Virus record (IMG/VR): IMGVR_UViG_3300008219_000029
Coordinates: 1 to 40,124 of that record
Origin: a virus
Strand: one strand, 5' to 3'
DNA: 40,124 nucleotides
The position numbers and the translations under genes were made by a program. Every line of letters starts with the position of its first letter. Position 1 is the stretch's first letter. Below the pieces are notes generated by a model. The model was given only the letters and a program-made list of their open reading frames with translations. It was not told the origin of the DNA and ran no database searches. This document shows, one piece after another, positions 24,550-34,200 of the stretch.

Positions 24550-24577
24550 AAAAAAGCGCCGTCCCTAGCGCTTTTTT
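24550..24577 (-). terminator. Terminator-type hairpin between SSB-like and polymerase genes
   Basis: AAAAAAGCGC (24550-24559) and GCGCTTTTTT (24568-24577) form a 10-bp stem with an 8-nt loop, with T-runs on both strands. On the minus strand it lies after the SSB-like gene stop and before the polymerase start. It could therefore act as a partial terminator lowering polymerase transcript. A 14-bp perfect palindrome (24582-24595) lies next to it. Confidence 0.8.
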
Positions 24578-24596: not shown

Positions 24597-25412
24597 CTAT
24601 GCGGTACGACGACGACGGCGACGCGCTGGTTTTTCTTCTGCTTCGGGTTCTGCTGCTTCTGCTGCTTTGGCTGCTTTGGCTTCTGCTGCCTTAGCTTCTT
24701 TAGCTGCTTTGGCTTCACCTTTTGCTTGAGCTTTCGCTCGTGCTGCTTCTGATTCTGCGTCTAGCTGCGCTAATGCGCTGCTTGCGTCTTCCGCGGCTTC
24801 GGCTCCATCATCTTCCATATCAGATAATATATCGTTTAGTTCGGCTAATGACTTCCAGTCGTCAACATTTACCACGGGGGTAAAAATTTTACCGTGCTCT
24901 TTATGAATATAGTTATCGTTAGTAAGTTCGACTACAGGGCATACGTCACTAGCCCCGCTTGTTATCTGAGCTACAACGGCGTTAACAATTTTCTTGTATA
25001 CGCCACGTCCGCCCATTGAGCATGAGTTAAAGCTAACTTTCGTACCTTTATCCATACCGCTTAGACAAACCATTTGCATAGAAATTTGTTGCGCCCAAGA
25101 GCCTTTAACTTCAGGTAATCCGGCTTTAGGTGGTAAAGGATCAGTAGCTAGTACCATTTCTTCGCCTAACTTCTGTCCGTTCGTACCGTGTGCTTTATCG
25201 CCCCACGCTATCCAGCCATGCTGAAAGCCTTGCGGGTGTACTGCCCATAGTGCATCGTCTTCAACTTCCGTTTGTTCTGAACCCCAAACCCATTCACCAA
25301 ATTTAGTGAATTTCATAAAAGAACCGTCACCGCCAGCGTCAGAGCTTTGTGCGGATTGGGCTAAACCTTTTGCAAGGTTGGTCATTTCAGCTAGTTGAGT
25401 ATTATTCGACAT
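24597..25412 (-). CDS. Probable ssDNA-binding protein
   Basis: A 271-residue protein. The start is ATG 25412: AGAGGA lies 7 nt upstream, whereas the further in-frame ATGs are too close to it or lack a site. Residues ~30-200 form one beta-rich domain (FMKFTKFGEWVWG, the WIAWGDKA segment, PCPVVEL-like VCPVVELTNDNY, then KIFTPVVNVDDW). This matches a phage family encoded beside DUF2800 and polymerase genes and generally taken as SSB-like. The C-terminal ~65 residues are an Ala/Lys/Glu helix ending in a run of six arginines, unlike the acidic tail of bacterial SSB. Synteny supports the role; direct evidence for DNA binding is absent. Confidence 0.6.
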   Translation of the reverse strand: MSNNTQLAEMTNLAKGLAQSAQSSDAGGDGSFMKFTKFGEWVWGSEQTEVEDDALWAVHPQGFQHGWIAWGDKAHGTNGQKLGEEMVLATDPLPPKAGLPEVKGSWAQQISMQMVCLSGMDKGTKVSFNSCSMGGRGVYKKIVNAVVAQITSGASDVCPVVELTNDNYIHKEHGKIFTPVVNVDDWKSLAELNDILSDMEDDGAEAAEDASSALAQLDAESEAARAKAQAKGEAKAAKEAKAAEAKAAKAAEAAEPEAEEKPARRRRRRTA

Positions 25413-25425
25413 TTTCATTTCCTCT

Positions 25426-25445
25426 TTTCGTTTCGTTTCGTTTCG
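25426..25445. repeat. TTTCG pentanucleotide repeat (4 copies)
   Basis: Four perfect TTTCG copies plus a degenerate fifth (TTTAG), reading as GAAAC repeats on the minus strand. They lie between the nuclease stop and the Shine-Dalgarno site of the SSB-like gene. The array would make an unstructured A-rich leader and could slip in 5-base steps. Confidence 0.85.
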
Positions 25446-25446
25446 T

Positions 25447-26646
25447 TTAGTTTTCAAGTTGTTTTAGCGTTTCAGAAATGGCTTTCTGAGATACTACGGC
25501 TTCCCGCTTATCGCTTTCAAGGGCTATGGTAGTCCCTGAACTTTTGCTAATAGTTCTGCCATTCATACGTAGCGTAACTTTTAGCTTTTTGGCGACCTTT
25601 TCGGCTTGTGCTGGTGATATGACAGTGTATGTCATAGCGTTTTTAGCAGTAAGCTTGCGCTTTAAATATTCTGCCGTCGCGTCGGGGTCAATCCATTTTC
25701 TAGTAGCACGTTTATTTACTAACTTATACCCTGGGACTTCGTTACCTGCTTCTAATTGATCAAAAGCAAACGATCTTACGTCCTTAATCCATGGCTCCAA
25801 CTTCGAGGCTAATTCTAGCGCCTGTCCTAATTCTAGCACAGGTATGGTAAGTTCGGCACCTTTTTTCGATAACTCTTTGTTTTCGGTTATCAATTCGCCG
25901 TCGAGTAACGCTAAAGCGTTTCGTGCTGTCTTACCTTTTTCGGGACATATAGCCGCGGCAGGACAAAACTTACACCAGTCACCTTCATTTAAGTTTTCAC
26001 CTGGTTCTGATTCTTCAGCTACCGTAACAGCGTCAAGGAATCTGTCACCAAAGGCGTCTACTTCAGCGACGGTTGTTGACCAAACGTCTAAAGTTTCTTC
26101 GCGCTTATCCGACGGTTGGATGATGCCAAAATGAACCGGTGTTTCGGCGTCTATTTCAGTATCGAATAGGTCACTATCTAATGCTAGCCACACACAAAAG
26201 AACATCTGGTCGTTGTTGTCAGCGTAGACCATTACACCGTCGCCAAATTTGTAATCCGCACACGCTATAACACCGTCGCCATACGCTAAGATATCAGGCG
26301 TCCCGCCTATAACTTCGCTGAATTCTAACAATTCTTCGGTGATTACCGTAGTAAGGTTATAGTCCTCTACGAAATCTTCTAAAGATTCCATAGCCGGTAT
26401 GACTTTTTCTTCCAACAACTCAGGGGTTAGCTTGGCGTCGTTAAATTCTACGCCGCGTTCCAACAACTCGTCGTACTCTATACCTTCTTCTTCCAGTATT
26501 TCGCAGCAAGTGTGAAGCATAGTACCACGGTCCGCATGAACACTACCTTTATCTACACGGTCTATAGTGCTAGATAGAGCAGCCCAACCGGAGCAATTTA
26601 AAGTGCGCTTAGCGGTACTGCCGCCGTATTTATAGTGAAAACTCAT
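25447..26646 (-). CDS. DUF2800 Cas4/AddB-like PD-(D/E)XK nuclease with Fe-S motif
   Basis: A 399-residue protein. Nuclease motifs in order: GTMLHTCCE (His45, RecB-type), GGTPD (D118), then CADYK (D131-x-K133). Three cysteines in C225-x2-C228-x5-C234 together with Cys18 near the N-terminus form the four-cysteine pattern that holds a 4Fe-4S cluster in Cas4 and AddB nucleases. The C-terminal ~150 residues are helical and contain a basic motif (KRATRKWIDPDATAEYLK). It probably resects or processes phage DNA ends or supports recombination, together with the SSB-like protein just downstream. The family is DUF2800. AAGGAA lies upstream of the ATG. Confidence 0.8.
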   Translation of the reverse strand: MSFHYKYGGSTAKRTLNCSGWAALSSTIDRVDKGSVHADRGTMLHTCCEILEEEGIEYDELLERGVEFNDAKLTPELLEEKVIPAMESLEDFVEDYNLTTVITEELLEFSEVIGGTPDILAYGDGVIACADYKFGDGVMVYADNNDQMFFCVWLALDSDLFDTEIDAETPVHFGIIQPSDKREETLDVWSTTVAEVDAFGDRFLDAVTVAEESEPGENLNEGDWCKFCPAAAICPEKGKTARNALALLDGELITENKELSKKGAELTIPVLELGQALELASKLEPWIKDVRSFAFDQLEAGNEVPGYKLVNKRATRKWIDPDATAEYLKRKLTAKNAMTYTVISPAQAEKVAKKLKVTLRMNGRTISKSSGTTIALESDKREAVVSQKAISETLKQLEN

Positions 26647-26927: not shown

Positions 26928-27070
26928 ATTGTCTGCTCCTGTTTTAGCTTGTTTTCGTCTTACTAAATTTAATACTAGTATGACATTTCGAATATACCAA
27001 GTTTTTTATTTGTATTTTTTACATATAGTGCTATGCTTTAAAATACACCCACTTATAAAAGGCACACACA
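26928..27070. promoter_or_regulatory. Divergent promoter region between the replication blocks
   Basis: A/T-rich 143-bp gap between divergent genes. Minus strand: TTGGTA (complement of 26995-27000), 17-bp spacer, TAGTAT (complement of 26972-26977). Plus strand: TTTACA (27018-27023), 15-bp spacer, TAAAAT (27039-27044), followed by AAAGG at the plus-strand gene. Both are moderate matches to sigma70 sites. No operator repeat was obvious. Confidence 0.55.
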
Positions 27071-30759: not shown

Positions 30760-30961
30760 CTACGTACTATTGTCCTCGTATCTGATCCTAGTGTTCTGCT
30801 ATACCTTATTAGCTTACATTGCTAACCATGGTAAAAAGAATCAATCGTTTCGTACACTAGTCGTTTTCACGATCACATTAATAAGCCCTTTAGTACTTGT
30901 ATACTGCTTAGCTAAGTTATACGTGTACTTAAAGGATACTGAGGTTAAACCGGATGAATGA
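30746..30961 (+). CDS. Small two-span membrane protein
   Basis: A 71-residue protein with two hydrophobic segments: ~6-26 (YVLLSSYLILVFCYTLLAYIA) and ~38-58 (LVVFTITLISPLVLVYCLAKL), separated by a basic loop (HGKKNQSF). This fits a hairpin inner-membrane protein. AGGGGA precedes the ATG. It overlaps the gene before and the primase-helicase gene after. No function recognised. Confidence 0.65.
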   Translation: MVEANYVLLSSYLILVFCYTLLAYIANHGKKNQSFRTLVVFTITLISPLVLVYCLAKLYVYLKDTEVKPDE

Positions 30962-33362
30962 TATTTCTAATAATATACACACATTTATACAAAATATATT
31001 CGGGACTTTAGACGAAGACGAGCAGGTACTTTACTGGGGTTCTGCAAGTCCTATTCCCGGGTTTCCAAAATCCGAAGCTGAATTTCAAAGGATAATATCA
31101 CGTCGCAGCGTGAAAAAAGCTTGTTACTTTAGTACGTCTACGATAACGCCTGACGCTGAAGGTAAGCTATACAACAGGCAATCGCTATTCTATCGTATGC
31201 ATTGCATAGTTTTAGATGATATTGGCTCTGGCCTTGGCTCTAAGTGTAAGGTATCTGAATTACCCGACGTTCTACGTTACGAATATTCATGGCGCACTGA
31301 AACGTCGCCCGATAACTATCAATATGGTTTTGTATTTGACGAACCTATAAAAAATATCCACGACGCTATACAGTTTATTAAAATAATATACGGTGCAGGT
31401 CCTTGGGATAGTGGCGGCGCTACGCCTAATAAACTAGTACGTTTACCTTGTGGTCTTAACTTAAAAGATAAATACGCGGTAGACGGCGAGCTATTTAGAA
31501 TAGGCGATGAAGCTAAACACGGGCTATTCACTAATGACCCGTTTAACACTTTTTCACCTAGCGAACTGCTAGAAATAGTACGCGCTGGTGTTACTTGGGA
31601 AGATATACAAAGCGGTAACGCTGGTAAACTCGACCCTAGACGGTCACAAGGTACGACCTCATGGCGTGAAGGTGTCTACCAAAGTAACATGGAAGGTGTG
31701 GTAGACGATGCATTAGAATGGCTTAACGAGCGTGAATTAATCGTTAACGAAAGTGGTGACTGGGTAGATGTTATTTGCCCGTGGCATAAGGATCATTCAG
31801 ACGGTGGTGGTAATACCGCAGGTTATAGTCCTTTAGGCCATGGGTCTGATCCAGTTAAAAGGTCATTCCATTGTTTTCATGACCACTGTAGCGATAAACA
31901 TTCTAATGAATTTTTACAATGGATTGCTGAAGAAGGTGGCCCGCTCGTACCATATCACGACCCCGTACCTTTACTAGTGGCTCAATGGGCTTTTGATAAG
32001 GTTAGTAGTTGTTTTATAGATTTAAGAGAACCCGACGCGGAGCCTGAGCCTCAACGGGGGTTTCAAACAGGTCATTTAACTAAGGTTTTTTGGGTGAATG
32101 CGGCGGGTAAGCCTGTTAAAGCCACGCAGTACGCTTGCATAACAGAATCCCCAGGGTTCTTAAAGTTATCAGGGTACCGTAATGTACCTGGGGGTCCGCG
32201 TGTCCTCGATTACAACGGTAAAAAACGCTTGAACTCTTGGAGTGTTCCAGGCTGGGAGACTGAAAGCTTAGACAAGTCACGCGACCACTGGGACATATTC
32301 ACTGAGTTTGTTAAATACCTAATGCCTAATGGCGACGATGCGTCATGGTTCCTAGACCACTTAGCAGCCAAAGCACAAGATCCTACATACCGTGGGCCGT
32401 GTGTTGTACTATCTACGCCAGCACAAGGGTCGGGTCGTGGTACGTTAGAAAAACTAATGGGCGATATCTGGGGTTCTTGGAACATGAAAACGACGGGGCT
32501 TAACGAATTAGTGGGCGGGCTAAGCGGAAGCGGTTTTAACGACTTTTTAGTGTGTACTTGGCTTACTGTGCCTGAAGCTATGGCGTCGCAGTTATCTAAG
32601 ACGGAAGATGCGAAAGCCTACGAGTCATTGAAAACAGGTATAGATCCTGAAATGACTAGCCATGTAATACGTAAAAAGTACGGATCGCAAAGTACACAAA
32701 GTGTATATAGCTCTGTGGTTATATGTACGAATCGTGTGGGGTGTTTAAATATACCAGTAAGTGACCGTCGATTTTTTGATATCGATTGTACTGTCCGACC
32801 TGCCACGCCTGAATACTTCAAAGAGCTTAATGCGTGGCGTAAAACTAATTGGTGTCCTGTCGTATGGAATGAGTTACGAACGCGTGACATATCACATCAT
32901 AGCGGTTTTTCACCTAAACGTTTACAGCGTGACGAAGAAGCCACGGAGATCGTTGTACGCGGTTTAGTAGGTCAACAACCGTTAGACCGTATTGCTTCGG
33001 CTGCGCTGTTATTTGCTGATCAAAACTGCGAAGGTTTAATTCATACGGGTACGATTGCCAATTGGGTCGCCTCGTATCCTGTACAATTAGGCGTACCAAG
33101 TTTTGATAATTGGACGGGTATACTTAAACGTTGTTTAGCTGACCAGACCAGCGAGGTTAAAGTTAACGGGGTGCGTAAATCGTATCGCTCCGGTAATGCT
33201 AAGTGCTATGTACGTCATACATTAAGTGATATTGGTCATGGTTCGTCGGATAAATTAGCTAACGAATGGTCTAGGGATACTATACAAAAGTTAGCCCATT
33301 CAGCCACGGCGGAAGAATTCAGGGACTTTGTACTTGATATCTTTAATGATGCCGGTGTATAG
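30954..33362 (+). CDS. Primase-like plus SF3 (DUF5906-type) helicase
   Basis: An 802-residue replication protein. Residues 1-200 contain an acidic primase-like core (CIVLDDIGSG at 84-93, then ETSPDNYQYGF at 116-126). Residues ~270-315 hold a zinc motif (CPWH at 275-278, CFHDHC at 307-312). Residues ~470-650 are the D5/DUF5906 SF3 helicase: P-loop G492-S-G-R-G-T497, with R495 where Lys is expected; DRRFF marks the usual arginine-containing motif. The C-terminus is a DNA-binding-like region. It would synthesise primers and unwind for the family A polymerase. GAGG lies before the ATG. Confidence 0.85.
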   Translation: MNDISNNIHTFIQNIFGTLDEDEQVLYWGSASPIPGFPKSEAEFQRIISRRSVKKACYFSTSTITPDAEGKLYNRQSLFYRMHCIVLDDIGSGLGSKCKVSELPDVLRYEYSWRTETSPDNYQYGFVFDEPIKNIHDAIQFIKIIYGAGPWDSGGATPNKLVRLPCGLNLKDKYAVDGELFRIGDEAKHGLFTNDPFNTFSPSELLEIVRAGVTWEDIQSGNAGKLDPRRSQGTTSWREGVYQSNMEGVVDDALEWLNERELIVNESGDWVDVICPWHKDHSDGGGNTAGYSPLGHGSDPVKRSFHCFHDHCSDKHSNEFLQWIAEEGGPLVPYHDPVPLLVAQWAFDKVSSCFIDLREPDAEPEPQRGFQTGHLTKVFWVNAAGKPVKATQYACITESPGFLKLSGYRNVPGGPRVLDYNGKKRLNSWSVPGWETESLDKSRDHWDIFTEFVKYLMPNGDDASWFLDHLAAKAQDPTYRGPCVVLSTPAQGSGRGTLEKLMGDIWGSWNMKTTGLNELVGGLSGSGFNDFLVCTWLTVPEAMASQLSKTEDAKAYESLKTGIDPEMTSHVIRKKYGSQSTQSVYSSVVICTNRVGCLNIPVSDRRFFDIDCTVRPATPEYFKELNAWRKTNWCPVVWNELRTRDISHHSGFSPKRLQRDEEATEIVVRGLVGQQPLDRIASAALLFADQNCEGLIHTGTIANWVASYPVQLGVPSFDNWTGILKRCLADQTSEVKVNGVRKSYRSGNAKCYVRHTLSDIGHGSSDKLANEWSRDTIQKLAHSATAEEFRDFVLDIFNDAGV

Positions 33363-33369
33363 AAGAAGT

Positions 33370-33422
33370 GCTACTTTTCACGAGGTATTTTAAGTTTAAG
33401 ACCTTTACCGTGGAAAAGTAGC
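33370..33422. other. Large bulged hairpin with pseudoknot-capable loop
   Basis: GCTACTTTTCACG (33370-33382) pairs with CGTGGAAAAGTAGC (33409-33422): 13 bp with a single bulged G and a 26-nt loop. The loop contains AGACCTT (33399-33405), which can also pair with AAGGTCT (33432-33438) downstream. No T-run follows, so it is not a simple terminator. Confidence 0.75.
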
Positions 33423-33431
33423 AAAATGCGT

Positions 33432-33456
33432 AAGGTCTCTAATTGAGACCTTTATT
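33432..33456 (+). terminator. Terminator-type hairpin after the primase-helicase gene
   Basis: AAGGTCTC (33432-33439) and GAGACCTT (33445-33452) form a perfect 8-bp stem with a 5-nt loop, followed by TATT. The U-run is weak. Its 5' arm can instead pair with the upstream loop, giving mutually exclusive structures. Confidence 0.65.
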
Positions 33457-33471
33457 CTGCCCTACTATAAT
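33443..33471 (+). promoter_or_regulatory. Sigma70-type promoter P1
   Basis: TTGAGA (33443-33448), 17-bp spacer, TATAAT (33466-33471): a near-consensus promoter. Its -35 overlaps the terminator's 3' arm. It reads towards the 33578 gene and the downstream accessory genes. Confidence 0.8.
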
Positions 33472-33473
33472 GT

Positions 33474-33515
33474 AAATGTCAATACAATACTTATATACAT
33501 TTTATATTGACATTT
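33474..33515. promoter_or_regulatory. 11-bp inverted repeat, candidate operator
   Basis: AAATGTCAATA (33474-33484) and TATTGACATTT (33505-33515) are perfect inverted copies with a 20-bp A/T-rich spacer. The left arm sits at the P1 start site and the right arm covers the P2 -35 box. That position suits a repressor-binding site. Confidence 0.7.
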
Positions 33516-33533
33516 CATTTCATTTCATTTAAT
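33507..33533 (+). promoter_or_regulatory. Sigma70-type promoter P2 with CATTT repeat in spacer
   Basis: A perfect TTGACA (33507-33512) is followed at 15 bp by TTTAAT (33528-33533), or at 17 bp by TAATCT. The spacer is made of CATTT repeats. Confidence 0.6.
33511..33530. repeat. CATTT pentanucleotide repeat (4 copies)
   Basis: Four perfect CATTT copies lie between the -35 and -10 of P2. Slippage would change promoter spacing in 5-bp steps. Confidence 0.9.
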
Positions 33534-33577
33534 CTATATCTCCACTAATAAATATTCTAGCTATACAGGGGCCTACT

Positions 33578-33982
33578 ATGAGTAGCAAACGACGTAAAAG
33601 TATAATGCGTGAAGCTCGTCGGTGTTTCGTACCTAATGAGGCCCCATGTTACACCTACAACGGTAAAACCCTTACTGGTGATTACGATAGAATGTGCTTT
33701 GCCGCAGGTTGGGCCCTAGAGCTAGACGAATTCGAATCTATGCGGAAGTGTAAAGGCGACGAATCCGAGGTTAAAACTTTTGGGTTAATCATACACGATG
33801 AATTCGACTTTCTATGTGTTGATGATGGCGTCGTCAAAACTGAAGCCGCGAATCATGAACAGGCTATGGGATATTTTCTTAGCCAGTACCAAGACGAATT
33901 AATAGGGCTAACGTTACAGACGTTTTGCTTCGATGATGAATCACAAAAATACGGCTACGAATACGCCATAATCGGGGGGTAA
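33578..33982 (+). CDS. Unknown acidic protein, first gene of the P1/P2 operon
   Basis: A 134-residue protein. The N-terminal ~20 residues are strongly basic (SSKRRKSIMREARR); the rest is acidic and beta-strand-like (TFGLIIHDEFDFLCVDDGVVKT), with several Cys that do not form a clear metal site. No family recognised. AGGGG lies before the ATG. It follows the dual promoter and inverted repeat at 33443-33533, so it is the first product of a probably strong early transcript. That position is typical for host-takeover proteins (inference). Confidence 0.6.
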   Translation: MSSKRRKSIMREARRCFVPNEAPCYTYNGKTLTGDYDRMCFAAGWALELDEFESMRKCKGDESEVKTFGLIIHDEFDFLCVDDGVVKTEAANHEQAMGYFLSQYQDELIGLTLQTFCFDDESQKYGYEYAIIGG

Positions 33983-33987
33983 ATAAT

Positions 33988-34200
33988 ATGGGTTATGCAC
34001 CACATATACATAAGCAGAAAAAAGGTTCACAAGTTTGGACCGAAGCTAAGCGCCGCAAACTCTTAGGAATGTGCGGTTACTTCACTAAAGAAGAAATGGC
34101 CTTAGAGTTAGGCGTAAAAGTTCAGCAAGTACTAGACATGGTTGGTCGTATGGGTGCTAGCTATCGAGTCACCAAAAACAAAGAGGATTACAAACCATGA
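33988..34200 (+). CDS. Small HTH-like protein
   Basis: A 70-residue, basic protein. WTEAKRRKLLGMCGYFTKEE at ~17-36, then MALELGVKVQQVLDMVGRMG, reads as a helix-turn-helix of the phage/SANT type, with a basic N-terminus (HIHKQKKGSQ). A DNA-binding regulator is likely, but its site is unknown. GGGGGG lies before the ATG. It overlaps the next membrane-protein gene by 4 nt (ATGA). Confidence 0.65.
   Translation: MGYAPHIHKQKKGSQVWTEAKRRKLLGMCGYFTKEEMALELGVKVQQVLDMVGRMGASYRVTKNKEDYKP

Follow-up and report, generated by a model that had tools for sequence, protein, structure and literature searches.

The gap at positions 33363-33577 of a viral genome lies between an 802-aa primase-like gene and a 134-aa ORF, and its hairpins and repeats raise the question of whether it acts through RNA structure or through the initiation of transcription. 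The window of 40,124 bases takes in the entire virus record, which is classed as linear and is therefore possibly a fragment. The upstream gene (30954..33362, + strand) encodes a DUF5906/primase-helicase-like protein and is the final gene in a replication operon; it was assigned to PHROG 4861/1156 DNA primase, and its match to PF19263 was under the cut-off. On the other side of the gap, a Shine-Dalgarno-like AGGGG (33567..33571, +), read directly from the sequence, is located 6 nt upstream of the ATG of the first gene in a downstream small-gene cluster (33578..33982, +; 134 aa, no assigned function).

To date, the only close relative found is G001, a 62.5-kb IMG/VR phage contig with synteny across nearly all of the window and amino-acid identities mostly of 40-85%, and conservation of the gap is thus judged from two genomes. 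The C-terminal half of the 134-aa protein is kept in G001 (55%), and the adjacent 70-aa protein (33988..34200, +) is conserved there as well. The latter has a three-helix, HTH-like model (pLDDT 70) and is a candidate regulator; a fold search with this model gave no significant match. Nucleotide searches against phages, plasmids and E. coli genomes returned nothing or low-complexity AT matches only, and the DNA polymerase and the 134-aa and 70-aa proteins, used as queries, led to no gap relatives beyond G001.

Hairpins and a proposed competing pairing

The folding excess of the gap was pronounced on both strands, with z values of -4.5 to -4.7 (+ strand) and -4.8 to -5.6 (- strand), and its folding z was the lowest among the nine gaps in the window, in agreement with an earlier note that had singled it out as the most structured. 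Two hairpins occur together in the minimum-energy structure of the + strand, with a pair probability of ~0.92 each. H1 (33369..33423, +; dG -20.1) is a long bulged hairpin composed of an 11-bp outer stem and 2+4 inner pairs. The outer stem (33369-33379/33413-33423) is perfectly paired, its pairs reached ~0.92 in the folding ensemble, and a perfect inverted repeat of this length with at least 4 G+C appeared in 2/2000 shuffles of the gap. H1 lacks a U-tract and is possibly a 3'-end protecting or RNase III-type processing hairpin.

H2 (33432..33452, +; dG about -11.8) is a terminator-like hairpin with 8 perfect bp, a 5-nt loop and the tail TTTATTCT. Intrinsic terminators combine a G+C-rich hairpin with a U-tract and a d-score above 0, the usual threshold of the d-score formula for terminators. 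H2 fell short of this profile with a d-score of -5.1 and was not among the candidates listed by a standard terminator scan, although it was the best + strand terminator-like hairpin in the 20-40 kb part of the window. The sole hairpin with a positive terminator score in the same 20-40 kb interval was found on the - strand at 24555-24572, just past a leftward 286-aa gene (24597-25457) and ahead of the DNA polymerase gene.

The earlier note had proposed that AAGGTCT at 33432-33438 pairs either with AGACCTT in the H1 loop (33399-33405, +), forming a pseudoknot, or with AGACCTT at 33446-33452 in the 3' arm of H2, and that the gap is consequently an RNA switch or attenuator. All of these elements and pairings are present at the coordinates given. 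The rarity of the double complement varies with the strictness of the count: shuffles of the gap contained a 7-mer with two complements in 9.5% of cases when every 7-mer was admitted, and in 0.15% when at least 3 G+C were required. Mutual exclusivity holds only in part, between the loop pseudoknot and H2; H1 and H2 do not exclude each other, as their joint presence in the minimum-energy fold shows.

In such a switch, the H1-loop pseudoknot (antiterminator) and H2 (terminator) would together set how much transcription of the primase operon continues into the small-gene cluster; we regard it as very improbable. In its favour, the double complementarity is real and, by the stricter count, uncommon; furthermore, before the 3' arm of H2 exists, the pseudoknot with the full H1 stem would be favourable if steric limits of the loops are disregarded (-28.9 vs -20.9). 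Once H2 is available, however, the balance is reversed. Using the standard pseudoknot penalty of 9.6 kcal/mol, H1+H2 was roughly estimated at -32.7, compared with -28.9 for the pseudoknot on the full H1 stem and -21 to -22 when the top of H1 is opened. By this rough estimate the pseudoknot, which has one pair fewer than H2 (7 vs 8, the latter all local), is ~4-12 kcal/mol worse and does not compete energetically with H2, which dominates the ensemble. The best pseudoknot is also strained, since 8 nt must cross a 17-bp stem with zero linker between the stems, and a working pairing of the H1 loop is unsupported. Searches of the gap against Rfam at gathering and relaxed thresholds yielded nothing credible, and the exact H1 pattern had no match in viral contigs. 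Both hairpins are missing from G001, the sole close relative, and none was found in the other searches. A switch of this kind could act only on read-through RNA of the primase operon, because transcripts from the two promoters described below would begin downstream of H1 and H2 and carry neither. The switch reading is unsupported. A variant in which the H1-loop pseudoknot forms co-transcriptionally, delays H2 and tunes read-through of the replication operon while an operator controls initiation, giving a combined termination/initiation switch in this phage only, appears just as improbable.

Two predicted promoters and an inverted repeat

Two sequences with sigma-70-type -35 and -10 hexamers at a spacing within 16-18 nt, better than expected by chance, lie downstream of the hairpins or overlap their end. 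P1 (33443..33471, +; TTGAGA-17-TATAAT) matches the consensus at 11/12 positions, a score reached in 0.65% of shuffled gaps, and its -35 sits within H2. P2 (33507..33535, +; TTGACA-17-TAATCT) has a -10, TAATCT, that is a weak consensus match, and its sequence has no second copy in the window or in L001. Both are predicted to be active from these hexamers. The sequence CCTACTAT is present both at 33461-33468 (the P1 -10) and at 33572-33579, where it spans the start codon of the 134-aa gene.

An operator-like imperfect palindrome of 42 bp (33474..33515, +) lies between these promoters and runs into P2. Its left half-site, TGTCAATACAAT (33477-33488), and its inverted right half-site, TGTCAATATAAA (33501-33512), share the consensus TRTCAAYAnAA and measure 36 bp end to end; the P2 -35 falls within the right half-site. 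The palindrome score was reached in 1/1000 shuffles. The half-site pair occurs once per genome and is the best such pair in both the window and G001, with a 36-bp span in each; as the matrix was built from the same four half-sites, this ranking describes uniqueness and is not independent proof.

Comparison with G001 separated the conserved part of the gap from the rest. In G001, the primase stop codon is followed by 3 nt and then by TATCAATACAATA...TTGACA-17-TAATCT, and a stretch of ~110 nt with H1, H2 and P1 is missing. Positions 33479-33538 align with G001 54592-54651 as a block of 60 nt without gaps, identical at 40/60 positions (67%), a score reached by 0/300 shuffle pairs. This block contains the TCAATACAATA half-site and both P2 hexamers, which the two genomes share without change in sequence, spacing, register or location. 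The two-fold symmetry is weaker in G001 (10/18 pairs, p about 0.012), and the overlap with the promoter is retained. The two promoters and the operator-like repeat suggested previously were confirmed as sequence features; of the gap as a whole, G001 conserves only P2 and the inverted repeat. In viral contigs, the operator pattern alone matched the G001 contig only; the combined operator and P2 pattern had no match, a zero that is uninformative since the pattern also missed G001, which should contain it. Elsewhere in the window, the divergent gap between two replication gene blocks (26928-27070) has a conserved promoter-like block, TTTGTATTTTTTACATATAGTGCTATGCT, in common with G001.

A probable operon boundary and its alternatives

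The gap is probably an operon boundary, at which hairpins at the 3' end, acting as a weak terminator, are followed by host-type promoters that drive the small-gene cluster and are governed by an inverted-repeat operator with widely spaced half-sites. The primase would mark the end of the replication operon, and both hairpins would belong to the 3' untranslated end of its message as lineage-specific structures, H1 serving in protection or processing and H2 as an intrinsic terminator of low strength. Transcription would then restart for the small-gene cluster from P1 and/or P2. Judged from the sequence, the conserved function of the gap is most likely this initiation, with the inverted repeat as its operator. 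A putative DNA-binding protein, probably a phage-encoded dimer, would bind the two half-sites. Control would extend to both promoters, with repression as the simplest mode, since the P2 -35 is shared with the right half-site and the P1 start falls at the left one.

The inverted repeat could instead activate P2, as a binding site for an activator or as a UP-like element, with the bound protein compensating for the poor -10, as is the case for wide-spaced sites of other phages. We consider this unlikely, though less so than the other alternatives. The weak -10 fits it, as does the left half-site, ~53-63 bp upstream of the presumed P2 start, and the phi29 p4 sites are likewise inverted repeats with a 15-bp centre beside promoters (PMC3100819). 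Nevertheless, the right half-site holds the P2 -35, and a dimer bound there would normally block RNA polymerase. It is also highly doubtful that the AT-rich palindrome and the hairpins form a replication origin or single-strand initiation site. The adjoining primase gene, the AT-rich DNA and the strong hairpins on both strands would suit that role, but G001 lacks the hairpins, iterons are absent except for two CATTTCATTT copies, and the conserved part has promoter geometry. Moreover, GC skew tracks gene direction and makes no turn at the gap, on which ground an origin here was rejected.

Known systems and distant primase relatives

The operon-boundary reading places the gap alongside the intergenic terminator-promoter/operator regions that tailed phages use with host sigma-70 polymerase. 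Like them, it has a hairpin past the upstream operon, near-consensus -35 and -10 hexamers with 17-bp spacing and an inverted repeat over a promoter; it differs in its terminator, which is weak by score, in widely separated half-sites (36 bp end to end) and in two promoters that flank and overlap the operator. For site geometry, the nearest analogue is phi29 p4, whose sites at promoters A2c/A2b/A3 are imperfect inverted repeats around a long A+T-rich centre that overlap the early-promoter -35 (PMC3100819). The same three traits are seen here; the half-site sequence and spacing are different and there is one site instead of four, so the likeness is offered as a resemblance, with no claim of membership. 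PreQ1-I type riboswitches are similar in that a possible H-type pseudoknot competes with a terminator hairpin, whereas the elements in this gap lie at the 3' end of the upstream message, ahead of the promoters, with no Rfam match, and are absent from G001.

The suggestion that the gap is a regulatory hub gained from eight distant primase relatives (L003, L004, L011-L016; 31-36% identity), in which a promoter recurs at the 3' end of the primase gene, reading TTGACG-17-TACTAT in seven and TGGACT-17-TACTAT in L014. A constant spacing of 17 combined with a variable offset from the stop codon (6, 9 or 15) points to a promoter and not to constraint on coding. In common with the present gap, these loci have a host-type promoter at the same gene junction, ahead of a small gene that it would drive. 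Unlike in the present gap, the -35 sits in the last primase codons, a palindrome is absent, and the next gene is a ribbon-helix-helix-like ORF of 51-55 aa; one such ORF had weak ribbon-helix-helix similarity and another weak MazE-like similarity, both under curated cut-offs. No comparable region past the primase was present in L002, L009, L010 and L021.

The gap reveals no new regulatory principle. It probably marks where the small-gene cluster is controlled, in a phage lineage for which the collection searched contains no close relative, and it supplies a specific half-site, TRTCAAYAnAA, with its 36-bp span. The recurrence of a host-type promoter right past this primase family in distant relatives should aid the annotation of such contigs. 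L017 has TTGACG-17-TAACAT at this position, and in L010, past 4493, a near-perfect hairpin, TGTGCCAAAAGTGATATTTCACTTTTGGCACA, lies immediately past the primase stop, with a similar copy ~255 nt onward.
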